From NCBI RefSeq assembly GCF_037479095.1, contig NZ_JBBGZW010000001.1:3038001-3102000 (forward strand): a stretch of 64,000 bases of DNA, in the 5' to 3' direction. Every line of letters begins with the position of its first letter. Positions within the stretch are counted from its first letter, which is position 1. The notes beneath the pieces were generated by a model, which did no database searches, was not told where the DNA came from, and saw only the letters and a program-made list of their open reading frames with translations. Shown here one piece after another: positions 30,625 through 43,142 of the stretch. Source of the stretch: Pantoea nemavictus. GTDB taxonomy: Bacteria; Pseudomonadota; Gammaproteobacteria; Enterobacterales; Enterobacteriaceae. The position numbers and the translations under genes were made by a program.

Positions 30625-31743
30625 TCAGAACTGGTACGTCAGACCAACGGCCACGATGTCATCGTTGTTGAGTGACAGACGGTTGTCGTCGCTCAGCTGG
30701 TTGATTTTGTAATCAACAAAGGTCGACATGTTTTTGTTGAAGTAGTAAGTCGCGCCCACATCGATGTATTTAACCAGGTCCGCATCGCCGATACCTTCGA
30801 TGTCTTTGCCTTTGGTCTGAACGTAACCGATGGAAGGACGCAGGCCGAAGTCGAACTGATACTGAGCAACCAATTCGATGTTCTGCGCTTTGTTCGCTGC
30901 ACCTGATACTGCTGCGCCGGTAGCGGAATCCGTACCGCTGATTGGCGTCATGTTACGGGTTTCGGTGTAGATGGCCGCCAGGTAAACGCTGTTAGCATCA
31001 TATTTGATGCCCGCGCCCCATGAATCGGCTTTATCACCGGAACCGTATGCACGCGCTTGCTGCTGGTTAGTACGATCGGAAGAGGTAAGGGCAGACATCA
31101 GGCTGATGCCGCTATCACCAAGGGTGTAGCCCAGAGATGCACCGTAACCGTCGCCGTTCTGGCGTGAGGTATCGGTCGCGCTACCGCGTGCGTTGGCGCT
31201 GGTCGAATCGTTTTTGCCCTGATATTGCAGCGCGAAGCGCAGGCCATCAACCAGACCAAAGAAGTTGTTGTTGCGGTAAGTTGCCACGCCGGTCGCACGC
31301 GCGGTCATGAAGTTATCGGTACGCGCCGTACCGTCACCGCCAAACTCTGGGAACACGTCCGTCCAGGCCTCAACGTCGTACAGCACGCCGTAGTTACGAC
31401 CGTAGTCGAATGAACCGTATTGACCAAATTTCAGGCCAGCAAAGCCCAAACGGGTTTTGTTGCCAGTGTTAGCGTCAGAACCTTCAGAGTTGTTGACGTT
31501 GTATTGATATTCCCACTGACCGTAACCGGTCATCAGGTCATTAATCTGCGTCTGGCCCTTGAAACCGATACGCACGTAAGATTTGTCGCCATCGCTTGAC
31601 GCATTATCGCTGAAGTAGTGTTCAGCTTTAACACGGCCGTAGAAGTCCAGTTTATTACCGTCTTTGTTATAAACTTCTGCGGCGTTTGCGGTGGAAGCCA
31701 GTGCCAGCGCAGAAACAACCAATGCCAGTGTGCTTTTCTTCAT
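30625..31743 (-). CDS. phoE: Outer-membrane general porin, PhoE locus
   Basis: Trimeric beta-barrel porin of 372 residues in the OmpC/OmpF/PhoE family. The signal peptide ends at [20 protein letters not shown]; the constriction-loop PEFGGDGT stretch is present, and the terminal phenylalanine (LTYQF) directs outer-membrane assembly. Sequence alone does not separate PhoE from OmpC. Position between crl and proB and a Pho box upstream argue for the phosphate-starvation porin. It is about 20 residues longer than E. coli PhoE, mainly in extracellular-loop regions rich in Gly, Ser and Ala. Confidence 0.9.
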
Positions 31744-31823
31744 TTTGCTATCAATCCCAATGAGTAAAATTTGTTGTACCCGTGAAAGGTTTTGTAAAAC
31801 ACGGGACTTTTTACCGGTTGGCG

Positions 31824-31841
31824 ATGAAAGTTTTATGACAG
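31824..31841 (-). promoter_or_regulatory. Pho box upstream of phoE
   Basis: On the minus strand the sequence reads CTGTCAT-AAAA-CTTTCAT, two PhoB 7-mers separated by four AT bases, with one mismatch to CTGTCAT in the second. It lies 81-98 bases upstream of the porin start, a suitable position for PhoB activation. Confidence 0.7.
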
Positions 31842-31989
31842 TTTTTCGGTTTTCTTGTTAATCGCGAACTTTTGGTCTAGCGCATTGTCCGCGGATTTTT
31901 GTGCTTTTCCCCTTGCTGCTGTTGGCTTCCTTGCTCACTCCTGATAAAACGTCCCTTCGCAGATTTTTTTCTTACATGGCAGGAAAAAC

Positions 31990-33093
31990 ATGAGTGGCAG
32001 TCAGACCCTTGTGGTCAAGTTGGGTACTAGCGTCCTCACCGGCGGTTCGCGTCGGTTGAATCGGGCGCACATGGTGGAGCTGGTTCGTCAGTGTGCACAA
32101 CTGCACGCGGCGGGCCATCGCATTGTTATTGTGACCTCTGGCGCCATCGCCGCTGGACGCGAACACCTTGGTTACCCCGAACTGCCGCCTACCATCGCCT
32201 CAAAGCAGCTGCTGGCTGCGGTGGGGCAGAGCCGTTTGATCCAGCTGTGGGAACAACTTTTCTCGATTTACGGCATTCATATTGGACAAATGCTGCTGAC
32301 GCGCGCCGATATGGAAGATCGTGAACGCTTCCTCTACGCGCGTGACATGCTGCGTGCGCTGCTCGACAACCACATCGTACCGGTGATTAACGAGAACGAC
32401 GCGGTGGCGACCGCGGAGATTAAAGTCGGCGACAACGACAATCTGTCGGCGCTGGCCGCGATGCTTGGCGGTGCCGATAAACTGCTGCTGCTGACCGATC
32501 AGCAAGGGCTGTTCACCGCCGATCCACGCACGAATCCTGAAGCTGAATTGATCAGCGACGTGCACCAGATCGATGACGCGCTGCGTACCCTCGCCGGCGG
32601 CAGCGTTTCCGGCCTCGGCACCGGCGGCATGGCGACGAAACTGCAGGCGGCCGACGTCGCTTGCCGCGCCGGCATTGATGTGATTATCGCTGCGGGCAGC
32701 CGTCCCGACGTGATCAGTGACGTGCTGTATGGCAAACCGGTTGGCACGCGCTTCCATGCGCAGCAGTCGCCGCTGGAGAACCGCAAACGCTGGATCTTTG
32801 GCGCGCCGCCTGCCGGTGAAATCACCATTGATGATGGCGCGCTGGCCGCGATGCTCGAACGCGGCAGCTCGCTGCTGCCAAAAGGGATTCGTGAGGTGCA
32901 GGGCAATTTTTCGCGCGGTGAAGTGATCCGCATTCGCAATCTGCAAGGGCGAGATATCGCCCACGGCGTGACGCGTTACAATAGCGATGCCATGCGCATG
33001 ATTGCCGGTCATCACAGCCAGGAAATTGGCGAGATCCTCGGTTACGAATATGGCCCGGTAGCGGTGCACCGTGACGACATGATCGTCAGTTAA
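31990..33093 (+). CDS. proB: Glutamate 5-kinase
   Basis: First enzyme of proline synthesis, 367 residues as in E. coli. An N-terminal amino acid kinase domain ([63 protein letters not shown]) is followed from about residue 275 by a PUA domain. It phosphorylates glutamate and is normally feedback-inhibited by proline. AGGAAAAAC precedes the ATG. proA follows after 10 bases. Confidence 0.97.
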
Positions 33094-33103
33094 GGAGCGG
33101 ATG

Positions 33104-34357
33104 ATGTTAGAAGAAATGGGTAAAGCGGCGCGCGCAGCGTCGTACAAGCTGGCGGAGCTCTCCACCGAACAGAAAAATCAGGTGCTGCTGACCATTGCCG
33201 ATCGTCTGGAAGCGGAAAGCGCCGACATTCTGGCAGCCAACGAGCAGGATCTGGCCGATGCACGGCAAAACGGCATGAGCGCAGCGCTGCTCGATCGTTT
33301 GACGCTCAACCCGCAGCGCCTGAAAGGCATTGCCGATGATGTGCGTCAGGTGTGTCGTCTGGCCGATCCGGTTGGCCAGCTGATTGATGGCGGCGTGCTG
33401 GATAGCGGCCTGCGCATTGAGCGTCGTCGCGTGCCGCTCGGCGTTATTGGCGTGATTTATGAAGCGCGTCCCAATGTGACCGTCGATGTCGCGTCGCTGT
33501 GCCTGAAAACCGGCAATGCGGCCATCTTGCGCGGCGGCAAAGAGACCTATCGCACCAACGCGGCTACCGTGCGGGTGATCCAAAATGCCCTGATGCAGCA
33601 CGGATTACCGGCGGGCGCGGTGCAGGCGATTGAAAATCCAGATCGCGAACTGGTTAATCAGCTGCTGAAGCTTGATCGCTACGTCGACATGCTGATCCCG
33701 CGCGGCGGCGCAGGTTTGCACAAGCTGTGCCGTGAGAACTCGACTATTCCGGTCATCACCGGCGGCATCGGCGTGTGTCATCTCTATCTCGATGAAACCA
33801 TGGAGACCGAGGCGGCGCTGGAGGTGATCGTCAATGCCAAGAAACAGCGGCCAAGCGCCTGTAACTCATTGGAAACGCTTCTGATTCATCGCCATCAGGC
33901 TGAGCGCTTTATCCCGGCATTCCTGCAGCGCATGGCGCAGGAGAAGATTGCGCTGCACGGCGACGAAAACGTGCTGGCGCTGCTGCAAAACGGTCCCGCT
34001 GATGTGGTGGCGGTGAAAGCAGAAAATTATGATGACGAATGGTTGTCGAACGATCTGAACGTCAAGCTGGTGGCCGATATTGATGCCGCCATTGCGCACA
34101 TTCGTCAGCACGGCACGCAGCACTCCGACGGCATCCTTACGCGCAGCATTGGCAACGCCAATCGCTTCGTCAACCAGGTTGATTCATCTGCGGTATACGT
34201 TAATGCCAGCACCCGTTTCACCGACGGCGGTCAGTTCGGCCTCGGCGCCGAAGTGGCGGTCAGCACGCAGAAGCTGCACGCGCGTGGACCGATGGGACTT
34301 GAAGCGCTAACCACCTATAAATGGATTGGTTGGGGCGACGATACGCTGCGTCGTTAA
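33104..34357 (+). CDS. proA: Glutamate-5-semialdehyde dehydrogenase (gamma-glutamyl phosphate reductase)
   Basis: Second proline-biosynthesis enzyme, 417 residues, NADPH-dependent, aldehyde dehydrogenase fold. The catalytic cysteine is in [37 protein letters not shown] and [18 protein letters not shown] are typical. Two ATG codons are adjacent; I prefer the second (33104), which matches the E. coli N-terminus and has better spacing from AAGGAG. In E. coli the tRNA gene thrW and a prophage follow proA; here a terminator and a small phage-like cassette follow and no tRNA is visible. Confidence 0.97.
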
Positions 34358-34378
34358 TGTTCGCTCCTGCATGACAAT

Positions 34379-34407
34379 GGGCACCGAAAACGGTGCCCAT
34401 TTTTTTC
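34379..34407 (+). terminator. proBA terminator
   Basis: Perfect stem GGGCACCG / CGGTGCCC with an AAAA loop, followed by ATTTTTTT, 22 bases after the proA stop. Confidence 0.9.
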
Positions 34408-34703
34408 GCTTTCGATCCAGTTATTCCAAGAGCTTTTTGATTTATTTCTGTCATCTATGGCGGGGTCGCTGCTTTTCACCCATTTTTTCCTTTAGATGCT
34501 GGTCTTACTGCTACAGAACAATCCTGAAAACCCCTGTCAGAACAAGCGATATGGTAATGATCACTGGTTTCGGCTTAACCGAAAGGGATAATGATTGTCC
34601 AGCTTCATTGATAAAAGCGGTTGGGTAGTAAACTGACGGTAATATAAAATGAACTGGTAGCAAAAATGAAAATAACATTCAGTCTTTTACTGAAGGCAGA
34701 TTA
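34408..34703. other. Intergenic region between proA terminator and phage-type repressor
   Basis: No gene or tRNA is recognised. A perfect hairpin TTTCGG-CTTAA-CCGAAA lies at 34568-34584. A candidate repressor promoter is TTGGGT (34621-34626), 16 bases, TATAAA (34643-34648). Confidence 0.45.
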
Positions 34704-34718
34704 TTAACTGATGGTTAA
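34704..34718. promoter_or_regulatory. Operator palindrome overlapping the repressor start codon
   Basis: TTAACTGATGGTTAA is a perfect inverted repeat TTAAC-N5-GTTAA whose centre contains the repressor's ATG. Near-copies occur downstream of the repressor at 35494-35508 and 35516-35530. This looks like an autoregulatory site of the cassette repressor. Confidence 0.6.
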
Positions 34719-35442
34719 AAAAGAAAGTACCAGACAAGCATTTACTGCCAGGCTGATTGCCGCGTGCGAGAGCGCGGGAATTGTCGGACACGGACGGAAC
34801 AAACAGGTTGCGCTTGCTCTGCAAGAGAGGGGATGCAAGATCTCAACGCCGGGGGTTTGGAAATGGTTTAACGGACAATCAATTCCGGATGATAACAATT
34901 TGCTGGCGCTCAGCCAGTTATTAGACGTGCGCGTCGAGTGGCTGCAGTTTGGCATGGAAAAACCGGCTGCCTTGCTGACTCAGCGAAGCCTGGTTAACCC
35001 ACAACATCTGTTTCGCGTGGAGAGTCTGGATATCGGACAACACGGTGTGCGCAGCAGCAGTACGCGTGACGAACTGGTGGAAACCATTCAAGCCATTGAA
35101 TATGGGCTGGAAGAGGCGCGCGTACTGTTTAACGGCCGTCCGGCCGAAAATATTCGCCTCATCGCCCTCAACAGTGACTCAATGGCAGGCACCTTTGCGC
35201 CGCGCGATCAGCTGTTTGTCGATATCAGCGTGCATCGCTTCGATGGCGATGGCATTTATCTGTTTACGCTTGACGATCAGCTCTATCTCAAACGCCTGCA
35301 GCTGCAGCACAAGAAGGTGGCGGTAATCTCCGATAACAAGCGCTATGAGACCTGGTATTTAACGCTGGAAGAAGCGAAGACACTGCAGGTGGTAGCGCGG
35401 GTGATCATGAGCCAGGCGCGTGATTACCAAATTCTGGGCTGA
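34711..35442 (+). CDS. Phage CI-like repressor, XRE helix-turn-helix plus S24 peptidase-like domain
   Basis: Protein of 243 residues. The N-terminal part (about 8-75) is a phage-CI type helix-turn-helix ending LDVRVEWLQFG. The C-terminal part (about 145-235) is a LexA/CI S24-like domain with the serine in ALNSDSMAGTF and the lysine in LYLKRLQLQ. The linker lacks the Ala-Gly or Cys-Gly cleavage dipeptide at the usual distance before the serine, so RecA-stimulated self-cleavage may not occur. Operator palindromes cover its start and the promoter region downstream. It is the probable master switch of the lysis/tailspike cassette. Confidence 0.85.
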   Translation: MVKKESTRQAFTARLIAACESAGIVGHGRNKQVALALQERGCKISTPGVWKWFNGQSIPDDNNLLALSQLLDVRVEWLQFGMEKPAALLTQRSLVNPQHLFRVESLDIGQHGVRSSSTRDELVETIQAIEYGLEEARVLFNGRPAENIRLIALNSDSMAGTFAPRDQLFVDISVHRFDGDGIYLFTLDDQLYLKRLQLQHKKVAVISDNKRYETWYLTLEEAKTLQVVARVIMSQARDYQILG

Positions 35443-35493
35443 TCACAAAACGGCAGGTTGCGACAAAAAAATATTTTGGCTGAAATCATAAAT

Positions 35494-35530
35494 TTAACTG
35501 ATGGTAAATAAAAAATTAACCATTGGTGTT
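35494..35530. promoter_or_regulatory. Twin operators of the lysis-cassette promoter
   Basis: TTAACTGATGGTAAA (35494-35508) and TTAACCATTGGTGTT (35516-35530) are variants of the TTAAC-N5-GTTAA palindrome at the repressor start. They are spaced 22 bases, about two helical turns, like lambda OR1/OR2, and abut the -35 of the downstream promoter. A weaker third half-site, GTTAA at 35550-35554, is possible. Confidence 0.55.
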
Positions 35531-35558
35531 TGCCAATGCATTAGAACCTGTTAATAAT
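35530..35558 (+). promoter_or_regulatory. Promoter of the lysis/tailspike operon
   Basis: TTGCCA (35530-35535), 17-base spacer, AATAAT (35553-35558): each hexamer has five of six consensus bases. It overlaps or adjoins the repressor operators and directs transcription into the nut site and the N-like gene. Confidence 0.6.
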
Positions 35559-35856
35559 TTGAGCATGGATGGACGACATACCTGCTCCCGGATGAGCCCG
35601 CTCTTAAACAATTGAGGCGCTGCACAAGCGCGATACATACCATCCAAAGTTAGTGAACTTTGGGATGGGGTGGATACGCACTTTGCAGCGTTGTCAGTTG
35701 CCCTCTGTTTTTCACTCTCCTCTACTTCACCCTGGCCGTTAACACTGCCGGGCGAGTTGACGTCGAGTATTTCCAGAGGAACAACCGACGCTTCGGTTTA
35801 AGCCGAATCGCCGTGCCTGCCACCCCATCGCCAAAGACTCATTCACAGGAGGAGTT
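35559..35856 (+). other. Leader region of the lysis/tailspike operon
   Basis: About 300 bases of probable untranslated RNA upstream of the N-like gene. It contains the nut site (separate entry), a long hairpin at 35640-35668 (CCATCCAAAGTT / AACTTTGGGATGG with one bulge) and TTCGGTTTAAGCCGAA at 35792-35807, an approximate inverted copy of the hairpin at 34568-34584. A TTG-initiated frame from 35660 lacks a ribosome-binding site and is not called as a gene. Confidence 0.5.
35599..35631 (+). promoter_or_regulatory. Lambda-type nut site (boxA and boxB)
   Basis: boxA is CGCTCTTAAACA at 35599-35610, sharing CGCTCTTA and the final ACA with the lambda boxA. Six bases later, boxB GCGCTGCACAAGCGC at 35617-35631 folds as a 5-bp stem (GCGCT/AGCGC) with pentaloop GCACA; leaving out the fourth loop base gives GCAA, a GNRA-like loop. 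The stem is the same as in the P22 boxB I recall. The next gene encodes an N-like protein, its expected partner. Confidence 0.75.
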
Positions 35857-36135
35857 ATGGCGATCATCCAGTACGGAAAATCAGTATTCTCAGGCAATGC
35901 ACGCACGCGCCGTCATCGGCGGCGCCAGTCCCTCAGTCGCCTTAAGCGCAGCATCGACAGCGCGCTCGGCATCGAATATGAAAACGTCACCTTACGCACC
36001 GCTGAGCGCATCTGCCAGCGCCAGACGCAATCACGCGTCGACAGTGCGGTGTTAGCTCCCACACGCGTCCATCAGACGCAAGCGAGTTTCGATAACTGCT
36101 GTTTACCCCACGTTTATTTGTACGCCGTGCGCTAA
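35857..36135 (+). CDS. N-like transcription antitermination protein (P22 type)
   Basis: Small basic protein of 92 residues with a strong ribosome-binding site (AGGAGG). The N-terminus reads MAIIQYGKSVFSGNA and continues TRRHRRRQSLSRLKR: an arginine-rich motif at residues 14-31. I recall phage P22 N as containing YGKS, GNAKTRRHERRR in the same order, so this is almost certainly a lambda/P22-type N protein that binds boxB RNA and lets RNA polymerase pass terminators. A matching nut site lies about 230 bases upstream. The C-terminal half is not recognisable in detail. Confidence 0.75.
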   Translation: MAIIQYGKSVFSGNARTRRHRRRQSLSRLKRSIDSALGIEYENVTLRTAERICQRQTQSRVDSAVLAPTRVHQTQASFDNCCLPHVYLYAVR

Positions 36136-36161
36136 GTCCTTCTCTCCCTTTCCCCACTTTT

Positions 36162-36270
36162 AAGCGGAACGTTTCAATGGTGCTCACTGTTTAACCATTC
36201 TTGAGCGTTTCGCTTACCAAACAATGCGCTGAGATCGATAAACGATCAGCGAGATTTATGTGTTTTTGCC
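36162..36270 (+). terminator. Terminator-like hairpins between N-like gene and endolysin
   Basis: Two candidates. A long imperfect inverted repeat spans 36162-36215 (AAGCGGAACG...ATGGT pairing with AACCATT...CGTTTCGCTT). A second stem at 36228-36250 (GCTGAGATCG / CGATCAGC, bulged) is followed by ATTTATGTGTTTTTG. They sit where an N-dependent operon would need terminators. Confidence 0.45.
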
Positions 36271-36324
36271 ATTTTGCGCAGCCATTTTCAGACTATTGCG
36301 CCCGTTAAAGAGGAACCAACCACT

Positions 36325-36792
36325 ATGAGCCAGATTATTGCCATCCTGAATTTCGAAGAGGGTTATCGCGAAGCGCCTTACCTCGACACGTTGGGCTTTC
36401 CGACGGTCGCTGGCGGTATTCGCATCGGCCCAAAAGGCGCATCGCTGAGCAATTACATTTTCCAGGTGCCACGACCGGTGGGGGATGTATGGAAGCAGTG
36501 CATCGTCGAGGGCAAAGTGCTGCAGATGCATCAGCGCGCGCTGGTGCAACAGGCGCTTGCCAAGTGCAATGAGGCGCGTAGCGATGTGCTGATCAGCATG
36601 GGGTATCAACTCGGTGTGGATGGCCTCGCGATGTTTCGCGGCATGCTCACCTCCATCACGCAAGGCGACTTTGATGCCGCCGCCAATGCCATGCTCGACA
36701 GCCTGTGGGCGCGGCAGACATCCGGCCGTGCACGGCGCCATGCCGAAGTGATGCGCAGCGGCACCTATGACATTTATCGGGGGCTGCTATGA
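36325..36792 (+). CDS. Phage endolysin, T4-type lysozyme (GH24)
   Basis: Muramidase-like protein of 155 residues. Alignment with T4 lysozyme by eye places the catalytic glutamate at Glu12 (FEEGYREAPYLD), the aspartate at Asp21 and the threonine at Thr27 (GFPTVAGG), with the same E-x8-D-x5-T spacing. The C-terminal GRARRHAEVMRSGTYDIYRG stretch resembles the lysozyme tail. No signal or signal-anchor sequence is present, so export should need the holin. I chose the ATG at 36325 (AGAGGA upstream). The stop overlaps the holin start (ATGA). Confidence 0.82.
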   Translation: MSQIIAILNFEEGYREAPYLDTLGFPTVAGGIRIGPKGASLSNYIFQVPRPVGDVWKQCIVEGKVLQMHQRALVQQALAKCNEARSDVLISMGYQLGVDGLAMFRGMLTSITQGDFDAAANAMLDSLWARQTSGRARRHAEVMRSGTYDIYRGLL

Positions 36793-37139
36793 ATCTGAAA
36801 CTGCTGATTTTTGTTACTGCGGTGCTGGCGGTGATCGTCGTGGTGATGGTGATGCAGCGCTTCACCACGCTGGAGTTCGTCAAGCATGCGCGGCTGTTAT
36901 TCAAAACCTGGTCGGTGTGGCTGGCGTCACTCGGTTCGATGCTCAGCGCGTGGGTGCAATCTTTTCCCAGTGCTGCGCTCGATGCGTGGAACAGCATGCC
37001 GCCAGATGTGAAAGCGATTCTGCCGCACAACTATCTCGGTTTGATTGGCGCCTTCATGGTGGCGATGGGCGTGATTGCGCAATTCGTTCGCCAGAAAGGT
37101 CTCAACCAGCAGAAAACAGCGATGGAGGAAAAAGCATGA
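36789..37139 (+). CDS. Holin-like membrane protein
   Basis: Protein of 116 residues with a strongly hydrophobic N-terminal helix (about 5-22), an amphipathic segment with WLASLGSMLSAWVQSFPSAALDAW, and a second transmembrane stretch NYLGLIGAFMVAMGVIAQF (about 81-99), then a charged tail. This architecture and its place directly after endolysin and before the spanin genes fit a phage holin. ATGA overlaps join it to both neighbours. Function is inferred from topology and order. Confidence 0.7.
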   Translation: MNLKLLIFVTAVLAVIVVVMVMQRFTTLEFVKHARLLFKTWSVWLASLGSMLSAWVQSFPSAALDAWNSMPPDVKAILPHNYLGLIGAFMVAMGVIAQFVRQKGLNQQKTAMEEKA

Positions 37140-37429
37140 CATTTCTCATGGCAATGCTCGGCGGCAGCTGGCACTGGCTCGCCGCACTGGCGGGCGTGAT
37201 TGCCGCGCTGGCTGCCAGTTATTTCGGCGGTAAGAAAATCGGCAAGGTGCAGCAACAATCCCAATCCGCCGTGGAAAACGCCGACAAAGCGGCAGCCCAG
37301 GCGGTGGCAGTTAATCAGCAGCAGCAACAGCTGCGCGAGGAGGCCAAACGTGTGGAAGCCAGCAATCTTAATCTTGATGACGCTGCTGCTCGCGACAAGC
37401 TGCAGCAATCGAAATACCACCAGCCCTGA
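37136..37429 (+). CDS. Inner-membrane spanin (Rz-like)
   Basis: Protein of 97 residues: an N-terminal transmembrane anchor (about 8-28, WHWLAALAGVIAALAASYFG) followed by a polar Q/K/A-rich helix likely to be a periplasmic coiled coil (residues 32-90). This is the Rz i-spanin plan. I chose the ATG at 37136, which overlaps the holin stop (ATGA); the longer frame has no support. The 3' part contains the start of an Rz1-like gene in another frame, the classical nested spanin arrangement. Confidence 0.72.
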   Translation: MTFLMAMLGGSWHWLAALAGVIAALAASYFGGKKIGKVQQQSQSAVENADKAAAQAVAVNQQQQQLREEAKRVEASNLNLDDAAARDKLQQSKYHQP

Positions 37430-37580
37430 AGCCCCTGTCGTCATCGACTCTGCCTGTACCCTTTTTTCCCCGATTTACACCCACGGCAATGATGCCGAGC
37501 GCATGGACGTTCGTACCGTGCGCGCCATCAACAACCACAACGATCTTTGGGAACAGCACTGCGGCCAACCGGCCAAATAA
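37350..37580 (+). CDS. Outer-membrane lipoprotein spanin (Rz1-like), nested GTG start
   Basis: Frame-shifted relative to the Rz-like gene and starting inside it. A GTG at 37350 has GAGGAGG six bases upstream, giving 76 residues: a short lipoprotein signal (WKPAILILMTLLLATSC) with lipobox ATSC, then a small periplasmic domain containing two more cysteines. The mature lipoprotein would insert in the outer membrane and meet Rz to fuse the two membranes in the last step of lysis. In lambda, Rz1 is likewise embedded in Rz. Confidence 0.7.
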   Translation: MWKPAILILMTLLLATSCSNRNTTSPEAPVVIDSACTLFSPIYTHGNDAERMDVRTVRAINNHNDLWEQHCGQPAK

Positions 37581-37631
37581 CGCTGCTCTCACGCATTTGC
37601 ATTACCTACCTGAAAAGCCGAGGAGGCTATG

Positions 37632-39377
37632 ATGATCGAAGTTAACTCTTATGCTGAACTGCGCACCACTGCACCATCCAAAAACGGCGATCTGGCATTC
37701 TTACGCCGTTACAATCCAGATTCCACCTTCCGTGGCGGCGGTGATTTTACCGGTTTTATCGGTACCACAACGGCCGTTGATGATGGCGGCACGCTGGCGG
37801 TAGGAAACGGTTTTTACTGGAAGCGCGTGATTAACAACCCTTCCGATATCAACCTCTATCACTTCGGTGCGAAGGGCGACGGTTATGCCAACGACACCGA
37901 TGCGTTTAATCGGATGCTGGCATGGACGCAAAACTACTCGGGGAACATCACCGCGTTACCGGTGCGTTTCCCAGGCGGTAAATTCCTGATTAGCCCAATC
38001 GATATCAGCGGTACCGAGCGCGCCTTCTTTGGCTTGCAAGGCGATGATGTTGAGCTGGGTTCTTTGCCGCGTACCACCATCATTTCAGACAAAAGCGCCA
38101 ATACGGTGTTCAAGGTGAAGGCGCGTCGTACCTCGATCAGAGGTATTGCATGGAATGGCCAGGCGTCGGCCGATATCACCACCAACAAAAGCACCATCAC
38201 TGCCGATATGTGCAGCAACGTGCAGCCGTTCTTCGAAAACACCTGTATCGAAGGCACCACCGTAAATATTTACTGTTTCCGCGCGCAGAATAATGGCGGC
38301 ACGGTAATCAAAGTGCTGGATACTCTCGACAGTAAATTCGACCAAATCTACACCCTGTATACCTACGGACGCGTGTTTGATGTCGGCTGGTCGAACTCGC
38401 CAAAAGGCGCCTGGGATCACTCCACGGCGATTGAGATCTGCAACTGTAACTTCCAGACCGGTTACGGTGACGCCACGCTCTATATGCCGCGCGTGACGCA
38501 GGGGATTTTGCGCAACGTATGGATTGAGCATACGCGCAATCCGGGCGATCTCTCTGACGGCGGCTGGACCATCGATACGCTGAATATTGAGGATTGCGGT
38601 AACCCATTCAACCTCAATAATGCGCGCGTCACCATCCGACAGCTGAACCTGCAATCTGGCGCCAAAGTGAGTACTGACCTCGCCCCTGGCCGCTGGTTAT
38701 CCACCTTTGAATATGGCTATCGCCGTGATGAAAGCTACGGCAGCTTCCTGACCGGTTCGCTGCGTGCGGGCTATTTCAGCGGCTACAAGATCACCAACAA
38801 TACCGACACCGATAACTGGTATCGCCTGGGACAGCTGTTTTTCCCGAATGCTAACCAGCAGTGGGTGATGGAGTTCATTGGTAAAGCGGATGCCACTCAG
38901 CCGACCGGCACCGCCGGTTCCCCGGTCAATGTGGCTGCCACCGGTAAAACCTGGATCAACCTGCAGCGACTGGAAACGGTATGGGCCGATGTTTATCACA
39001 TGGGGCAACCCGCGGTGCTGGATATCCGCTACAGCCGTGTTGGCACCACCTATGCGGCGGTATGGGTAAAACTGCGGGCTAACAGTGGCGACACCATGAT
39101 GAACCTGAAATGCACCGGTCCAACGCGTTTCGATAGCGGTTCATGCTCGCTGTTCCAGCAGGACTTCTCGGTGGTGACTGATACCACCAAACTGGGCGGC
39201 TTCAAACCCGCCGCGCGCTTCGGTCTGCATAATGGACTGGCAGGTATCGGCGCCAATGAGAAAGGAGTACTTACCGTCGCGACGGCGGCCGGTACGCCGA
39301 CCAATAAAACCGCGCCTACGGGCTTTGTGCTGGTCAATATTAACGGTGTCGATCGTAAGCTCCCCTATTACGATTGA
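37632..39377 (+). CDS. Tailspike-like right-handed beta-helix protein, probable polysaccharide depolymerase
   Basis: Protein of 581 residues. The N-terminal 75 residues (GGGDFTGF, DDGGTLAVGNGFYWKR, INLYHFGAKGDGYANDTDAF) are the usual entry of pectate-lyase-like phage tailspikes. The middle shows repeated beta-rungs rich in T, N, I and V, and the end (about 430-581) looks like a beta-sandwich trimerisation or carbohydrate domain. It recalls AmsF/WceF-type and Erwinia phage tailspike enzymes acting on amylovoran or stewartan. There is no virion head-binding domain and no signal peptide, so release would need cell lysis. I prefer the second of two ATGs because of AGGAGG spacing. Substrate is unproven. 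Confidence 0.78.
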   Translation: MIEVNSYAELRTTAPSKNGDLAFLRRYNPDSTFRGGGDFTGFIGTTTAVDDGGTLAVGNGFYWKRVINNPSDINLYHFGAKGDGYANDTDAFNRMLAWTQNYSGNITALPVRFPGGKFLISPIDISGTERAFFGLQGDDVELGSLPRTTIISDKSANTVFKVKARRTSIRGIAWNGQASADITTNKSTITADMCSNVQPFFENTCIEGTTVNIYCFRAQNNGGTVIKVLDTLDSKFDQIYTLYTYGRVFDVGWSNSPKGAWDHSTAIEICNCNFQTGYGDATLYMPRVTQGILRNVWIEHTRNPGDLSDGGWTIDTLNIEDCGNPFNLNNARVTIRQLNLQSGAKVSTDLAPGRWLSTFEYGYRRDESYGSFLTGSLRAGYFSGYKITNNTDTDNWYRLGQLFFPNANQQWVMEFIGKADATQPTGTAGSPVNVAATGKTWINLQRLETVWADVYHMGQPAVLDIRYSRVGTTYAAVWVKLRANSGDTMMNLKCTGPTRFDSGSCSLFQQDFSVVTDTTKLGGFKPAARFGLHNGLAGIGANEKGVLTVATAAGTPTNKTAPTGFVLVNINGVDRKLPYYD

Positions 39378-39393
39378 GGTCCAGCACCTTTTT

Positions 39394-39427
39394 GGCGAGG
39401 CCTCTGGCCTCGCCTTTTTTTGTTTAT
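39394..39427 (+). terminator. Terminator of the lysis/tailspike operon
   Basis: Perfect stem GGCGAGGCC / GGCCTCGCC with loop TCT, followed by a T-run, 17 bases after the tailspike stop. Confidence 0.9.
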
Positions 39428-39503
39428 AGAGCGGAGAAGGATATTTTGTTCTGTAAGCTCTTGCTGAAATGATTTCCGTATAATTTTTAAACACAATAAT
39501 TGA

Positions 39504-39521
39504 TGTACACTTTAAGGTGCA
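39504..39521. promoter_or_regulatory. Candidate YafN operator
   Basis: TGTACACTTTAAGGTGCA is an imperfect 18-base palindrome 39 bases upstream of yafN. Antitoxins of this family repress their own operon, but this site is inferred. No LexA box is evident here. Confidence 0.3.
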
Positions 39522-39559
39522 TTATTATGTGCTTAATAAAATATAATGAGAGGTGATTT

Positions 39560-39853
39560 ATGGAGCGAATTCTCGCGGAAAAATCTATAAATATTACTGA
39601 GTTGAGAAAGAATCCGGCAAAGTACTTCATTGATGAGCCGGTAGCTGTTCTTTCCAACAACCGACCTGCGGGTTACATGATCAGTGCTGAGGTATTTGAA
39701 GAACTGATCGATCTGTTGGAGGAGAAACAAGGAAGAGTTCATACGGCTGCGCGATTCAGACCCAATGCTAACCGTCTAAGTGACATTGCGGAGAGTGGCG
39801 AGAAACTGCTGCAAAGCGCCTCTGACAAGGATCTGACCGAGTTCACCGAATGA
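39560..39853 (+). CDS. yafN: Antitoxin YafN
   Basis: Phd/YefM-family antitoxin of 97 residues, close to E. coli YafN: ILAEKSINITELRKNPAKYF and VAVLSNNRPAGYMISAE are nearly identical to what I recall. The N-terminal half binds DNA and dimerises; the acidic C-terminal tail should wrap the toxin. Its stop overlaps the yafO start (ATGA). In E. coli, yafNO lie in the SOS-induced dinB operon; here the pair has its own upstream region next to the lysis cassette. Confidence 0.93.
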   Translation: MERILAEKSINITELRKNPAKYFIDEPVAVLSNNRPAGYMISAEVFEELIDLLEEKQGRVHTAARFRPNANRLSDIAESGEKLLQSASDKDLTEFTE

Positions 39854-40254
39854 GCATTAGGGTTTTTAAATCAACTTTGATTCGTCAACAATTGAGCCAG
39901 ACAGAGCTTGATGATTTAGTGGCGGATTTTCTGTCCTATAAAAAAGAGGGGGAGTTGCCAGATACGTTTGGTCGGGATGCGCTCTATGATGACGACCGAA
40001 CCTATCCATTGGTAAAAGAAGAGCAGGTGGCTCACATTCATCTTGCCGATGCAGATGCACCTTTTCCCAAATTTTTACGTCAGTTCAAGCGGACCAGCGA
40101 TCAGGCCCACTTGGTTTACTGTCAGGGTGCAATGGATCCCAATGCCTATTTACTGATTATCATCCTGAAGCCCGAAGCGCATAAAATGGCACGCAATAAT
40201 AACAATATGCATAAGATCGGGATGATGGCCGAAGCATTCAGGATGAAGTATTAA
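39850..40254 (+). CDS. yafO: mRNA interferase toxin YafO
   Basis: Ribosome-dependent endoribonuclease of 134 residues, close to E. coli YafO: LPDTFGRDALYDDDRTYPL, VAHIHLADADAPFP, AHLVYCQGA and the C-terminal NNMHKIGMMAEAFRM. It would cleave mRNA downstream of the translation start when YafN is degraded. It overlaps yafN by four bases. The acetyltransferase gene yafP that follows in E. coli is absent; the convergent ABC transporter gene comes next. Confidence 0.93.
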   Translation: MSIRVFKSTLIRQQLSQTELDDLVADFLSYKKEGELPDTFGRDALYDDDRTYPLVKEEQVAHIHLADADAPFPKFLRQFKRTSDQAHLVYCQGAMDPNAYLLIIILKPEAHKMARNNNNMHKIGMMAEAFRMKY

Positions 40255-40309
40255 GTTGATCAAAAACCCCTTTTTATAGAGGAGCGGCATAACACCGCTC
40301 CTCTATCCG

Positions 40310-41380
40310 TCACCCTTTCGGGAAAATCCACACATGGTTTTCCGGCAGCGCCAGATGGCAGTGCTGCGGATCGCGTACCTCGGTGCCGTAGGCGCGAATC
40401 ACAAAATCATCGCCCGCGGTACGGAACAGATATTCCCAGCGGTCGCCGAGATACATGCTGGTGAGCAGCGGCAGTTCCAGCTGATTTTCACCCGGTCCGT
40501 CTACCAGTCTCACGCGCTCCACGCGAATCACCGCCGTGGCGTCCTGCCCCTGTTGCACACCTTCTCCCGCTAATCCCCACAATGCCCAGCCTTTTCCTTC
40601 GATACGCGCTTTACCGTCGCGCAGCTCGGTGATTTTGCCGTGCAGCCGGTTGTTGCTGCCCATAAACTCAGCGGTAAACAGGGTTTTCGGCGAGCCGTAC
40701 ATCTCCTGCGGCGTACCCTGTTGCTCGATCTTGCCGTTATTGAGCAACAAAATACGGTCGGAAATTGCCATCGCCTCATTTTGATCGTGTGTCACCATCA
40801 GCGCCGACAAGCCCAGCTTGATGATCAGTTCACGCAGGAACACCCGCGCCTCTTCACGCAGCTTGGCATCCAGATTTGATAACGGCTCATCCAACAGGAT
40901 CACCGGCGGGTTATAAACCAGCGCACGGCCAATGGCTACACGTTGCTGCTGCCCACCGGAAAGCTGATGCGGGTGGCGTTTGCCGAGATGACCTAAGCCC
41001 AACTGCACCAGCACATCCTGCACGCGCTGGGTGATTTCAGCGGAGGCCACTTTGCGCAGCTTTAACGGATAAGCCACGTTCTCAAACACGGTTTTGTGTG
41101 GCCATAACGCGTAGGACTGGAACACCAATCCAAGGTTGCGCTCTTCCGCCGGGATCTCGCTGCGCGGCGTGCCGGCGTAAACGGTGTTGTTGCCAATAAC
41201 AATGGTGCCCTGCGTCGGCTTCTCCAGCCCAGCGACCGCGCGCAGCAGCGTAGTTTTACCGCTGCCGGATGGCCCCAATAGAGAAACCACCTCACCGCGC
41301 TGCAGGTTCATGGAAACGCCTTTCAGCACCGGGTTGTCGCCGTAGGTTAAGTGCAGGTTCTCGACCGATAATTCAATCAT
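40310..41380 (-). CDS. afuC: AfuC/FbpC-like ABC transporter ATP-binding protein
   Basis: ATPase of 356 residues in the ferric/putrescine/sulfate branch. Walker A GPSGSGKTTLLRAVAG, signature LSGGQQQRVAIGRAL, Walker B VILLDEPLSNLDAKLREEAR, and a C-terminal TOBE-type regulatory region from about residue 240. It overlaps the permease gene by 8 bases on the minus strand. Family annotation says iron(III), but the partner binding protein lacks the iron motif, so the substrate may be different, for example a sugar phosphate. Confidence 0.85.
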   Translation of the reverse strand: MIELSVENLHLTYGDNPVLKGVSMNLQRGEVVSLLGPSGSGKTTLLRAVAGLEKPTQGTIVIGNNTVYAGTPRSEIPAEERNLGLVFQSYALWPHKTVFENVAYPLKLRKVASAEITQRVQDVLVQLGLGHLGKRHPHQLSGGQQQRVAIGRALVYNPPVILLDEPLSNLDAKLREEARVFLRELIIKLGLSALMVTHDQNEAMAISDRILLLNNGKIEQQGTPQEMYGSPKTLFTAEFMGSNNRLHGKITELRDGKARIEGKGWALWGLAGEGVQQGQDATAVIRVERVRLVDGPGENQLELPLLTSMYLGDRWEYLFRTAGDDFVIRAYGTEVRDPQHCHLALPENHVWIFPKG

Positions 41381-43142
41381 GTAATTTCACTCCAAATCGC
41401 AGGGCAATACCCAAACCGACGACCACCAGCAGGATGTTAATAAAGGAGAGGGCGGCAACGATATCAATCGCGCCCGCCGCCCACAGGGAAACCAGCATTG
41501 AGCCGATGGTTTCCGTGCCGGGTGACAGCAGATACACGCCGGTGGAGTATTCGCGCTCGAAAATCAGGAACATCAGCAGCCATGATCCAATCAAGCCGTA
41601 GCGTGACAATGGAATCGTGACGTGGCGCGTAATCTGTCCGCGCGTGGCGCCAGTGCTGCGCGCCGCTTCTTCCAGCTCCGGCCCCACCTGCAGCAGCGTT
41701 GAGGAGATCAAACGCAGACCATACGCCATCCACACCACGGTATACGCCAGCCAGACGCTGAAGATGGTGCTACGCAGCGAACGCAGCCAGACGATCAGGT
41801 TATCGCGCAGCCACTGCGACCAGGCGAAATCAGAAAGCCAGCCCGCTTTGAGCGAGTTATCCAGCCACATCGGCAGGAACAGGAATACCCAGAGAAATGC
41901 CAGACCGGCCAGCAGCCCTGGCACCGCGCGCGGCACCAGCACGCTGTAGTCGAGGAAGCGCGTAGTGTTGTCCGGTTTGCGGTGCATGGCGATGCCAATA
42001 AATAGATAACATCCCACCGCCAGCGCGCCGCCAATGACGCCGATCGCCATGGAGTTGACGATAGCGCGCAGCAGGTTGGGTTGCGCCCAGATGGTCTGGA
42101 AGGTTTTGATCGACAGTTCATCCCACAGCGAGACGCCAACGCCCCAGTTGGAGATAAAGGCGCGCAGCACCACGCCGAGCAACGGTACGCCAATGGTGAC
42201 GGTCAGCCAGAAAGCGACCACCGCACCGGCAACCCAGCGCCATTTGCCTAGCGGCAGGGCGCGCGCCTGCGACGCTTTCCCTTTCACAGTGACGAAGCGG
42301 TTGGCGGTGCGCATCAGGCGGCGTTGCAGCATCACCAGCGGAATGGTGATGCAAATCAGCACCACCGCCACCGCGGCCATCAGGTGATAGGACGGCGTGC
42401 CGAGTTTATTGGTCAGCTGATAGAGATAGGTGGCCAGCACCATGTTGCCTTCGGGATCGCCCAGCACCAGCATCAGACCGAACACCTCCAGCCCGAGGAA
42501 AAACAGCAGTACGATGGCGTATAGGATCGAGGGACGTACCATCGGCAAACTGACCGCGGTCATCACCTGCAGCGGCGATGCACCGGCGATACGCGCCGCT
42601 TCTTCCACATCCGAACCCACGCTGCGCAGCGCCGAGGAGATATAGAGATAAGCGTGCGGCACGTGCGTCAGACCGGCGATCACCACGATGCTCGACATGT
42701 CGTAGATATTCCATGGCACAAATCCCAGCAGCGACTGCGCCCACAGCGAGAAGAATCCCACCGGGCCCGCCGCCACCACATAACCAAATCCCAATACCAT
42801 CGGCGAGACAAAAATCGGCACCAGGATCAGCGGCTCAATGAGGCGTCTGCCCGGTAGATCGGTGCGCACCATTAAGAATGCCAGAATGCCGCCCAGTGGA
42901 ATGGCGATGATCACCAGGCCGAATGCCAGAATGAATCCGCTTCTCAATGCCTTATAGAAGTCGGGATCGGTAAAAATAAATGCGAAGGACTCCAGGCTCC
43001 ACTCTTTCGACGGTGAAAAGAACGGGGCGGAGAGGAAACTTTGAATGACGATAAACGACAGCGGAACGTAGATAACCAGCGCGGTTATCAGCACCACGAC
43101 GCCGCGCGGCAGGCTTTGCCACTTTCTGCGCAATGTACTCAT
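41373..43142 (-). CDS. afuB: AfuB/FbpB-like double permease
   Basis: Inner-membrane permease of 589 residues made of two fused permease halves, each with an EAA loop: VEEAARIAGASPLQVMTAVSLPM in the first and LEEAARSTGATRGQITRHVTIPL in the second. About twelve hydrophobic segments are visible, with a cytoplasmic linker around residues 285-305. This fused organisation is typical of FbpB/AfuB. The binding protein is encoded 74 bases upstream and the ATPase overlaps at the 3' end. Confidence 0.88.
   Translation of the reverse strand: MSTLRRKWQSLPRGVVVLITALVIYVPLSFIVIQSFLSAPFFSPSKEWSLESFAFIFTDPDFYKALRSGFILAFGLVIIAIPLGGILAFLMVRTDLPGRRLIEPLILVPIFVSPMVLGFGYVVAAGPVGFFSLWAQSLLGFVPWNIYDMSSIVVIAGLTHVPHAYLYISSALRSVGSDVEEAARIAGASPLQVMTAVSLPMVRPSILYAIVLLFFLGLEVFGLMLVLGDPEGNMVLATYLYQLTNKLGTPSYHLMAAVAVVLICITIPLVMLQRRLMRTANRFVTVKGKASQARALPLGKWRWVAGAVVAFWLTVTIGVPLLGVVLRAFISNWGVGVSLWDELSIKTFQTIWAQPNLLRAIVNSMAIGVIGGALAVGCYLFIGIAMHRKPDNTTRFLDYSVLVPRAVPGLLAGLAFLWVFLFLPMWLDNSLKAGWLSDFAWSQWLRDNLIVWLRSLRSTIFSVWLAYTVVWMAYGLRLISSTLLQVGPELEEAARSTGATRGQITRHVTIPLSRYGLIGSWLLMFLIFEREYSTGVYLLSPGTETIGSMLVSLWAAGAIDIVAALSFINILLVVVGLGIALRFGVKLHD

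Follow-up and report, generated by a model that had tools for sequence, protein, structure and literature searches.

A putative lysis and exopolysaccharide-depolymerase cassette with a probable lambdoid CI-N switch beside proA in Pantoea

The window analyzed here is a stretch of 64,000 nucleotides from Pantoea nemavictus (contig NZ_JBBGZW010000001.1, positions 3,038,001 to 3,102,000 of the forward strand). In this window proBA (31990-34357) is followed by a single rightward unit, hereafter the cassette, and this in turn by a YafO-type toxin-antitoxin pair (39560-40254). The cassette encodes, in this order, a CI repressor, an N antiterminator, an endolysin, a holin, the spanin Rz with Rz1 nested in it, and an exopolysaccharide (EPS) depolymerase followed by a terminator, and all of its frames are open. 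An earlier note, made from the sequence alone, had described positions 34704-39427 as a minimal phage-derived lysis and tailspike cassette; the genes, operators, promoter, nut site and final terminator that it named were borne out by family matches and conservation. The features are listed below, with the median ratio of nonsynonymous to synonymous substitution (dN/dS) for each gene.

34637-34663, forward strand: ultraconserved block 5' of CI, probably the CI promoter together with a conserved stretch that it does not explain (in 53 sequences, 26 of 27 positions are at least 98% identical; promoter placed by eye)
34621-34626 (-35, TTGGGT) and 34643-34648 (-10, TATAAA), forward strand: putative CI promoter, placed by eye
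34704-34718, forward strand: operator O1, TTAAC-N5-GTTAA, over the CI start codon (52 of 53 sequences)
34711-35442, forward strand: CI-like repressor with helix-turn-helix and S24 peptidase fold, 243 aa (PF00717, 8.8e-14; dN/dS 0.051)
35494-35508, forward strand: operator O2, TTAAC-N5-GTAAA (pair with O3 in 52 of 52)
35516-35530, forward strand: operator O3, TTAAC-N5-GTGTT, touching the -35 element of the lysis promoter (pair with O2 in 52 of 52)
35530-35558, forward strand: sigma-70-like promoter of the N-lysis-depolymerase operon, TTGCCA-17-AATAAT (consensus scan; run GTTAATAATTTG at 35550-35561 conserved)
35599-35631, forward strand: nut site, with boxA CGCTCTTAAACA at 35599-35610 and boxB GCGCT-GCACA-AGCGC at 35617-35631 (boxA core in 52 of 52, boxB in 51 of 52)
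35658-35836, forward strand: long-range helix of the N-leader RNA, 35658-35673 with 35820-35836 (alignment pairing, consensus structure, fold z-score)
35857-36135, forward strand: N-like antitermination protein with arginine-rich N terminus, 92 aa (PF25694, 1e-21; dN/dS 0.114)
36325-36792, forward strand: T4-lysozyme-type endolysin, 155 aa (phrog_7, 3.7e-10; dN/dS 0.126)
36789-37139, forward strand: holin, 116 aa (phrog_1356, 2.5e-21; dN/dS 0.154)
37136-37429, forward strand: Rz-like inner-membrane spanin, 97 aa (phrog_1026, 3.3e-10; dN/dS 0.189)
37350-37580, forward strand: Rz1-like outer-membrane lipoprotein spanin, GTG start chosen by eye, overlapping Rz in another frame (phrog_1275, 3.6e-19; dN/dS 0.266)
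37629-39377, forward strand: WceF/AmsF-like EPS depolymerase, beta-helix, 582 aa (phrog_4250 'EPS depolymerase', 4.7e-170; dN/dS 0.110)
39394-39414, forward strand: intrinsic terminator closing the operon (consensus scan; hairpin conserved downstream of the depolymerase gene)

No integrase, replication, packaging, head or tail-assembly gene was recognized in 31990-43142, where the cassette and toxin-antitoxin proteins were covered by family searches and the other neighbors by the open reading frame list or by eye, in agreement with the earlier statement that virion, integration and replication genes are missing. The holin, peptidoglycan hydrolase and spanin genes are clustered outside any phage, which is the gene content of a type 10 secretion system.

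Comparisons with relatives used 61 genomes of the genus, each species being represented once and that of the window twice; this set was searched with the depolymerase and endolysin queries before the proA neighborhoods were fetched. In 54 of the 61 genomes (the window and 53 of the 54 fetched loci) proA is followed immediately by all or part of the cassette, in nearly constant order and spacing, so that the search of related genomes proposed in the earlier note came out in its favor. The endolysin query has a match in 54 of the 61. In one genome (G030) the contig ends ~400 bases past proA; a genome of 2.4 Mb (G041) keeps a depolymerase remnant only, with no proA found, and a genome of 1.4 Mb (G043) gave no cassette match. 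Some reduced or insect-associated genomes carry decayed copies or none. The only sister-genus genome examined has the whole set at proA, with cassette proteins 57-73% identical. Among 295 genomes sampled from the family, only the sister-genus genome and the three genus genomes included have a CI of 69% identity or more; the next-best CI reaches 50% identity for part of the protein and 47% when its whole length is counted. A full prophage bearing this gene set, which at proA would have spoken against the earlier interpretation, was found neither in the proA stretches fetched nor in the phage collections searched, and the latter also contained no free phage with the set.

Intactness was assessed automatically at 56 loci (the window, 54 fetched loci and one of the sister genus), requiring at least 85% of the length of each gene. 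The numbers of loci passing are 53 for CI, 53 for N, 53 for the endolysin, 55 for the holin, 51 for Rz, 51 for Rz1 and 51 for the depolymerase, the last including one unrelated tailspike (L145). All seven genes pass at 47 loci, 46 of them within the genus (of 54 carriers). Two of the 47 have a C-terminal frameshift, one in CI (L102) and one in the endolysin (L131); proB of L102 also looks broken, so a sequencing error is possible there. The nine failing loci comprise two in which several genes fail (L112 and L114, in L114 proA as well), two with no Rz/Rz1 (L136, L145), two with a split depolymerase (L140, L142), one in an insect symbiont (L141) and two in small genomes (L143, L144). Frameshifts among relatives, which if frequent would have spoken against the earlier interpretation, are uncommon.

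All seven cassette genes are under purifying selection, with dN/dS of 0.051-0.266, in line with the earlier note, which had proposed this check for six genes. These values are NG86 medians over pairs with 0.15<dS<1.2 among 45 clean loci (180 to 925 of 990 pairs used), a set that leaves out the unrelated tailspike of L145 and the frameshifted loci; the pairs are non-independent, Rz and Rz1 overlap and many saturated pairs are excluded. On the same loci the medians are 0.087 for proA and 0.039 for proB. In another genus that carries related units the usable pairs are few (5 for the endolysin, 21 for the holin, 12 for the depolymerase), and their medians of 0.173, 0.358 and 0.100 are given little weight.

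The distances among cassettes were compared with those of the unlinked gene lysS, for which 30 loci were fetched from 32 genomes searched and 25 taxa had lysS, proBA and a clean cassette. The rank correlation with lysS is 0.77 for CI, N, endolysin and holin combined and 0.74 for the depolymerase, compared with 0.79 for proBA. The correlations of the two cassette parts with proBA are r 0.92 and 0.89, respectively, and none of 199 shuffles reached the observed values.

The control elements are conserved together with the genes. The operator pair O2/O3 is 21-23 bp apart in 52 of 52 sequences vs. 0 of 1040 shuffled ones, with a spacing of 22 bp in 50 of the 52, conserved half-sites and a variable center. 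A third operator, O1, beyond the pair noted earlier, overlaps the CI start codon in 52 of 53 sequences. Consensus scans of the cassette region found two promoters vs. 5.0 in shuffled sequence and eight terminators vs. 5.9; these sites are raised above chance by their conservation across relatives, not by their counts. A terminator-like hairpin lies within 150 bp after the depolymerase gene in 48 of 50 sequences vs. 37 of 500 shuffled ones. An arginine-rich N protein preceded by boxA and boxB is the arrangement of a lambdoid N-nut system, and boxB is identical in all sequences but that of L131 (P. stewartii), where one base pair is broken. Fourfold-degenerate sites are rarely invariant in the coding parts (proA 0 of 127, proB 8 of 151, CI 2 of 47, depolymerase gene 1 of 113). 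The 27-nucleotide block at 34637-34663 is nearly invariant in 53 sequences, and a promoter would account for only part of it. No LexA box is claimed: in six sequences, the sites of the two control regions that come closest to one have 2-3 mismatches in the 8 core bases.

The N-leader RNA is predicted to form a long-range helix that ends just 5' of the N ribosome-binding site. Across 28 of the 52 sequences, 99.8% of 448 alignment cells are paired and five cells are changed on both sides; the helix is mostly invariant, and the covariation support is slight. The fold z-score of the leader segment is -4.8, and the consensus structure contains the long-range helix. RNAalifold pairs the boxA core with the N ribosome-binding site, whereas the minimum-energy fold of the window sequence alone places boxA in a local hairpin. 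The arrangement resembles that of the lambda N leader. An Rfam search of 31500-40500 gave no match. At one locus (L113) ~1.3 kb of extra sequence lies between N and the endolysin gene.

CI is of the HK022 kind; its closest phage relatives are those of Citrobacter phage Omnitron (45%) and HK022 (37%), and the window protein has the Ser/Lys dyad, with Lys194 in 53 of 53 CI proteins and Ser157 in 49 of 53. The endolysin matches the T4-lysozyme type, and its triad, presumably E12/D21/T27 from comparison with T4 lysozyme, is kept residue by residue in 52 of 53 sequences and in 45 of 45 clean loci. The lipobox cysteine of Rz1, C18, is present in 51 of 51 and 45 of 45, respectively.

The depolymerase gene usually begins ~47 bp after Rz1. 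Its product matches WceF of P. stewartii (6TGF, 2.2e-103) from WceF residue 169 onward and hence is without the twin-arginine translocation (Tat) signal and the head domain of WceF; by eye no signal peptide is present, and no head domain was seen. According to the available part of PMC7949094, WceF hydrolyzes stewartan, is encoded in the EPS cluster and has both a Tat signal and a head domain. Membership in the WceF/AmsF family of beta-helix EPS hydrolases, together with the match to phrog_4250, is consistent with the earlier suggestion that the enzyme cuts a polysaccharide. A cargo without a signal that is linked to lysis genes is, as judged by sequence, what a type 10 secretion system would carry. 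The closest phage enzymes are the depolymerases of Erwinia phages phiEaP8 and Yoloswag (46% over the full length). The window's own genome also encodes a WceF-like protein, 39% identical to the cassette enzyme, and two more distant homologues (32-33%, G000:C1:365923-367641 and G000:C2:210507-212267); no matches to the cassette lysis genes were found near these two.

These observations suggest that the cassette is probably a domesticated lambdoid prophage fragment that the bacterium keeps as a switchable lysis-and-release unit. Conservation, purifying selection and presence in the sister genus favor such a unit over random decay, the preference that the earlier note had expressed. The best reading, which we consider fairly likely, is that of a vertically inherited unit that is gated by repressor and antitermination and releases a leaderless polysaccharide depolymerase. 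CI would bind O2 and O3 and silence the operon promoter, probably tuning its own synthesis through O1. Removal of CI would allow transcription, upon which N would be made, bind boxB and modify RNA polymerase, so that the polymerase continues through the endolysin, holin and spanin genes to that of the depolymerase. The leaderless depolymerase would accumulate in the cell until the holin, endolysin and spanins open the envelope and free it. The released enzyme might then cut the stewartan- or amylovoran-type EPS of its own population or of neighbors, presumably to some benefit.

Several observations weigh against this reading or narrow it. A conserved intrinsic terminator was not found in the gap between N and the endolysin gene, where the earlier note had seen terminator-like hairpins; such hairpins occur in 6 of 50 sequences vs. 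6.6 expected, with none in the window. Thus, only Rho or weak hairpins would make N necessary. The A/C-G linker dipeptide is missing from the window CI and seen in 21 of 53 CI proteins, and 4 of the 53 have alanine in place of the catalytic serine. Therefore, SOS autocleavage does not appear to be the general trigger; classical SOS induction of CI is doubtful, autocleavage not being a conserved feature, and unusual cleavage sites in CI may nevertheless exist. The phiEaP8 and Yoloswag depolymerases begin at the same point as the cassette enzyme. As the phage homologues are equally headless, the missing head is no proof of domestication, and the enzyme may belong to a soluble subfamily rather than represent a truncation made by the bacterium. 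Damaged copies are carried by P. ananatis LMG 2665 (L142), which combines a frameshifted depolymerase with Ala for Ser157 in CI, and by P. stewartii (L131), which combines the broken boxB pair and the frameshifted endolysin with the same substitution. Related lysis genes (endolysin 46-77%) are also found without a depolymerase at eight other fetched loci of the genus that look prophage-like by eye.

Inheritance is likewise not free of conflict. Well-supported splits of the lysS tree are contradicted by the cassette in 3 of 16 cases and by proBA in 2 of 16; conversely, lysS contradicts 6 of 20 splits in the cassette tree and 2 of 17 in that of proBA. Some exchange is therefore possible, and the inheritance of the cassette appears mainly, not strictly, congruent with that of housekeeping genes. 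The proA site is empty in four genomes (L156-L159). Placement of two empty-site genomes (G012, G031) on the lysS tree showed that they group with G048, nested among carriers, which suggests old acquisition and late loss as the simplest reading. G048 (locus L145) keeps CI, N, endolysin and holin; its depolymerase is an N-terminal fragment, and Rz/Rz1 were not found. This locus was also considered as a cassette with exchanged cargo, which was rejected, as its other tailspike of 653 aa lies beyond a tRNA-Thr gene.

The closest known counterparts are the type 10 secretion systems, such as ChiWXYZ of Serratia and YenLC of Yersinia entomophaga, which share with the cassette a holin-endolysin-spanin cluster outside a phage that is linked to a cytoplasm-folding cargo. 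For YenLC, release of the cargo through lysis of a subpopulation of Y. entomophaga is reported in the available part of PMC10847048, according to which known type 10 systems are driven by ChiR or RoeA; the switch of the cassette would instead be CI with N at a nut site. Known type 10 cargo is a chitinase or toxin, whereas the putative cargo of the cassette, which is likened to these systems from its genes, is an EPS depolymerase. The terms Pantoea, Erwinia, antitermin and depolymerase are absent from the main text of PMC10847048. The cassette would thus operate in the manner of a type 10 secretion system, but under lambdoid control.

The cassette can also be compared with the N-nut operon of lambda and P22. 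Shared features are an N family protein, boxA, a boxB with a 5-bp stem and 5-nucleotide loop, operators and a leader helix between nut and N. However, the N gene of the cassette leads straight into lysis genes, and no cro, replication, Q, head or tail-assembly gene was recognized; three operators flank CI, also unlike in lambda and P22. The enzyme shares the beta-helix depolymerase family with WceF/AmsF (6TGF), but lies behind lysis genes, whereas WceF is encoded in an EPS cluster. The phiEaP8 and Yoloswag depolymerases belong to complete phages, and the stretches inspected there do not contain this lysis set. Release of surplus tailspike enzyme along with the progeny of Pantoea phages is proposed in the available part of PMC9915841, in keeping with an enzyme that diffuses.

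New here are the lambdoid CI-N circuit as the switch and a cargo that would cut matrix polysaccharide. No description of the cassette was found in a full-text literature search, most subscription journals lying outside its reach, and the available part of PMC12175523 contains nothing on it. The Lrp-regulated lysozyme and holin of P. stewartii were not taken as the cassette, since they are plasmid-borne according to the available part of PMC12285263. If the proposed reading is true, a phage decision circuit including its RNA elements, and not merely a structural part, has been kept by selection across a genus, and lysis-mediated release widens from toxins and chitinases to matrix enzymes. This raises the questions of whether lysis of a subpopulation frees neighbors from their own slime and of which signal acts on a domesticated CI-N switch.

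Searches for related units showed similar combinations at other loci. Depolymerase matches at E<=1e-120 were found in nine of 392 genomes sampled across the family; five of these belong to the genus of the window and the remaining four to three other genera. In one of these three genera, 25 of 37 genomes gave 38 matches, of which 30 loci were fetched; G281 and G474 in this set are nearly identical at the depolymerase gene. With flanks of 1500 bases, 24 of the 30 loci show one or more lysis genes immediately 5' of the depolymerase in the same orientation, and none was detected within these flanks at the other six. Four longer stretches lie among flagellar genes, as indicated by Pfam matches to FliD and FliS near L184, FliE and a CheV-like protein near L185 and FliF near L187, and by eye for L182. 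A repressor, endolysin, holin, Rz, Rz1 and depolymerase are present in three of them (L182, L184, L185), together with a Q-type antiterminator (PF06530, 4.8e-41 at L184; by eye at L182 and L185). The fourth, L187, is a second unit of the sister genus with repressor, holin, endolysin, Rz and depolymerase, in which no Q was identified. Elsewhere, a divergent CI accompanies endolysin, holin and depolymerase at L181, only CI and depolymerase are present at L183, and L186 has just the depolymerase. The presence of phage switch, lysis genes and depolymerase at several loci in several genera means that a single frozen accident is no explanation. Away from proA in the genus of the window, L191 (G017:C5) has an endolysin, Rz and a 606-aa depolymerase by a possible Q-type antiterminator, seen by eye, and is perhaps a prophage remnant.

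A broader picture is put forward tentatively, and we would not be surprised if it proved wrong. Erwiniaceae-type bacteria may repeatedly have built a device from a phage repressor (with an antiterminator at several loci, N at proA and Q at a flagellar locus), a phage lysis set and a soluble enzyme that cuts slime. On cue, a small number of cells would burst and dissolve the matrix for the others, either for biofilm dispersal or to deny phages their EPS receptor. Most of the genus would thus carry an altruistic system of matrix release controlled by a phage circuit.

Phage records were searched for the cassette proteins as well. N is unmatched, and the best matches are 66% for the endolysin, 45% for CI and 46% for the depolymerase. 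A homologous depolymerase is present in 137 records, of which 102 are named Erwinia phages and 16 Pantoea phages. Scans of IMG/VR, which detect close relatives only, gave no match for the depolymerase; one match to CI and the nut site proved to be a chromosomal cassette with proA on the same contig, not a phage.

The abundance of Erwinia and Pantoea phages among these records bears on the alternative of an altruistic anti-phage unit, in which an infecting phage relieves CI through an antirepressor, a Cro-like protein or loss of CI, early lysis follows and the depolymerase strips the EPS receptor from kin. The lambdoid circuit is kept intact though SOS cleavage is not conserved, so the trigger may be another phage. 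This mechanism is considered unlikely; PADLOC gave only weak matches (RmrA, LeoBC and RTasSLATT, E 0.0003-0.004), and stripping of slime could also expose kin to other phages. Slightly less probable is that only CI immunity and the depolymerase matter, through superinfection exclusion and slow EPS trimming after accidental lysis, with the lysis genes as passengers. The dN/dS of CI is the lowest in the cassette (0.051), and the six other-genus loci with no lysis gene detected and the pair of genes at L183 would fit such a division. However, endolysin, holin, Rz and Rz1 are constrained too and keep their catalytic and lipobox residues, and the nut site and N leader are conserved. A slowly decaying prophage remnant without bacterial function, its frames open through recent insertion or chance, is very improbable: its gene order would fit a lambdoid prophage with large deletions and some genomes have lost or broken the cassette (9 of 56 loci fail the intactness test), but this account is contradicted already by medians of 0.05-0.19 (Rz1 0.27) despite high synonymous divergence and by ultraconserved noncoding sites, and the cassette occupies the same place in a second genus.

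Two neighbors of the cassette deserve mention. The PhdYefM-type antitoxin and YafO toxin genes (39560-40254) adjoin its end in the window and, of 59 loci compared, elsewhere only at L092 (G028); therefore, the pair is considered to lie outside the unit. ARAGORN found no tRNA-Thr(CGT) gene in the window. Of 21 loci of the proA region that were scanned, 12 have such a gene 3' of the cassette or, where the site is empty, 3' of proA (L170, L108, L113, L118, L123, L128, L143, L145 and L156-L159), with the cassette on the proA side. The tRNA-Thr gene is a known phage integration site in enteric bacteria.

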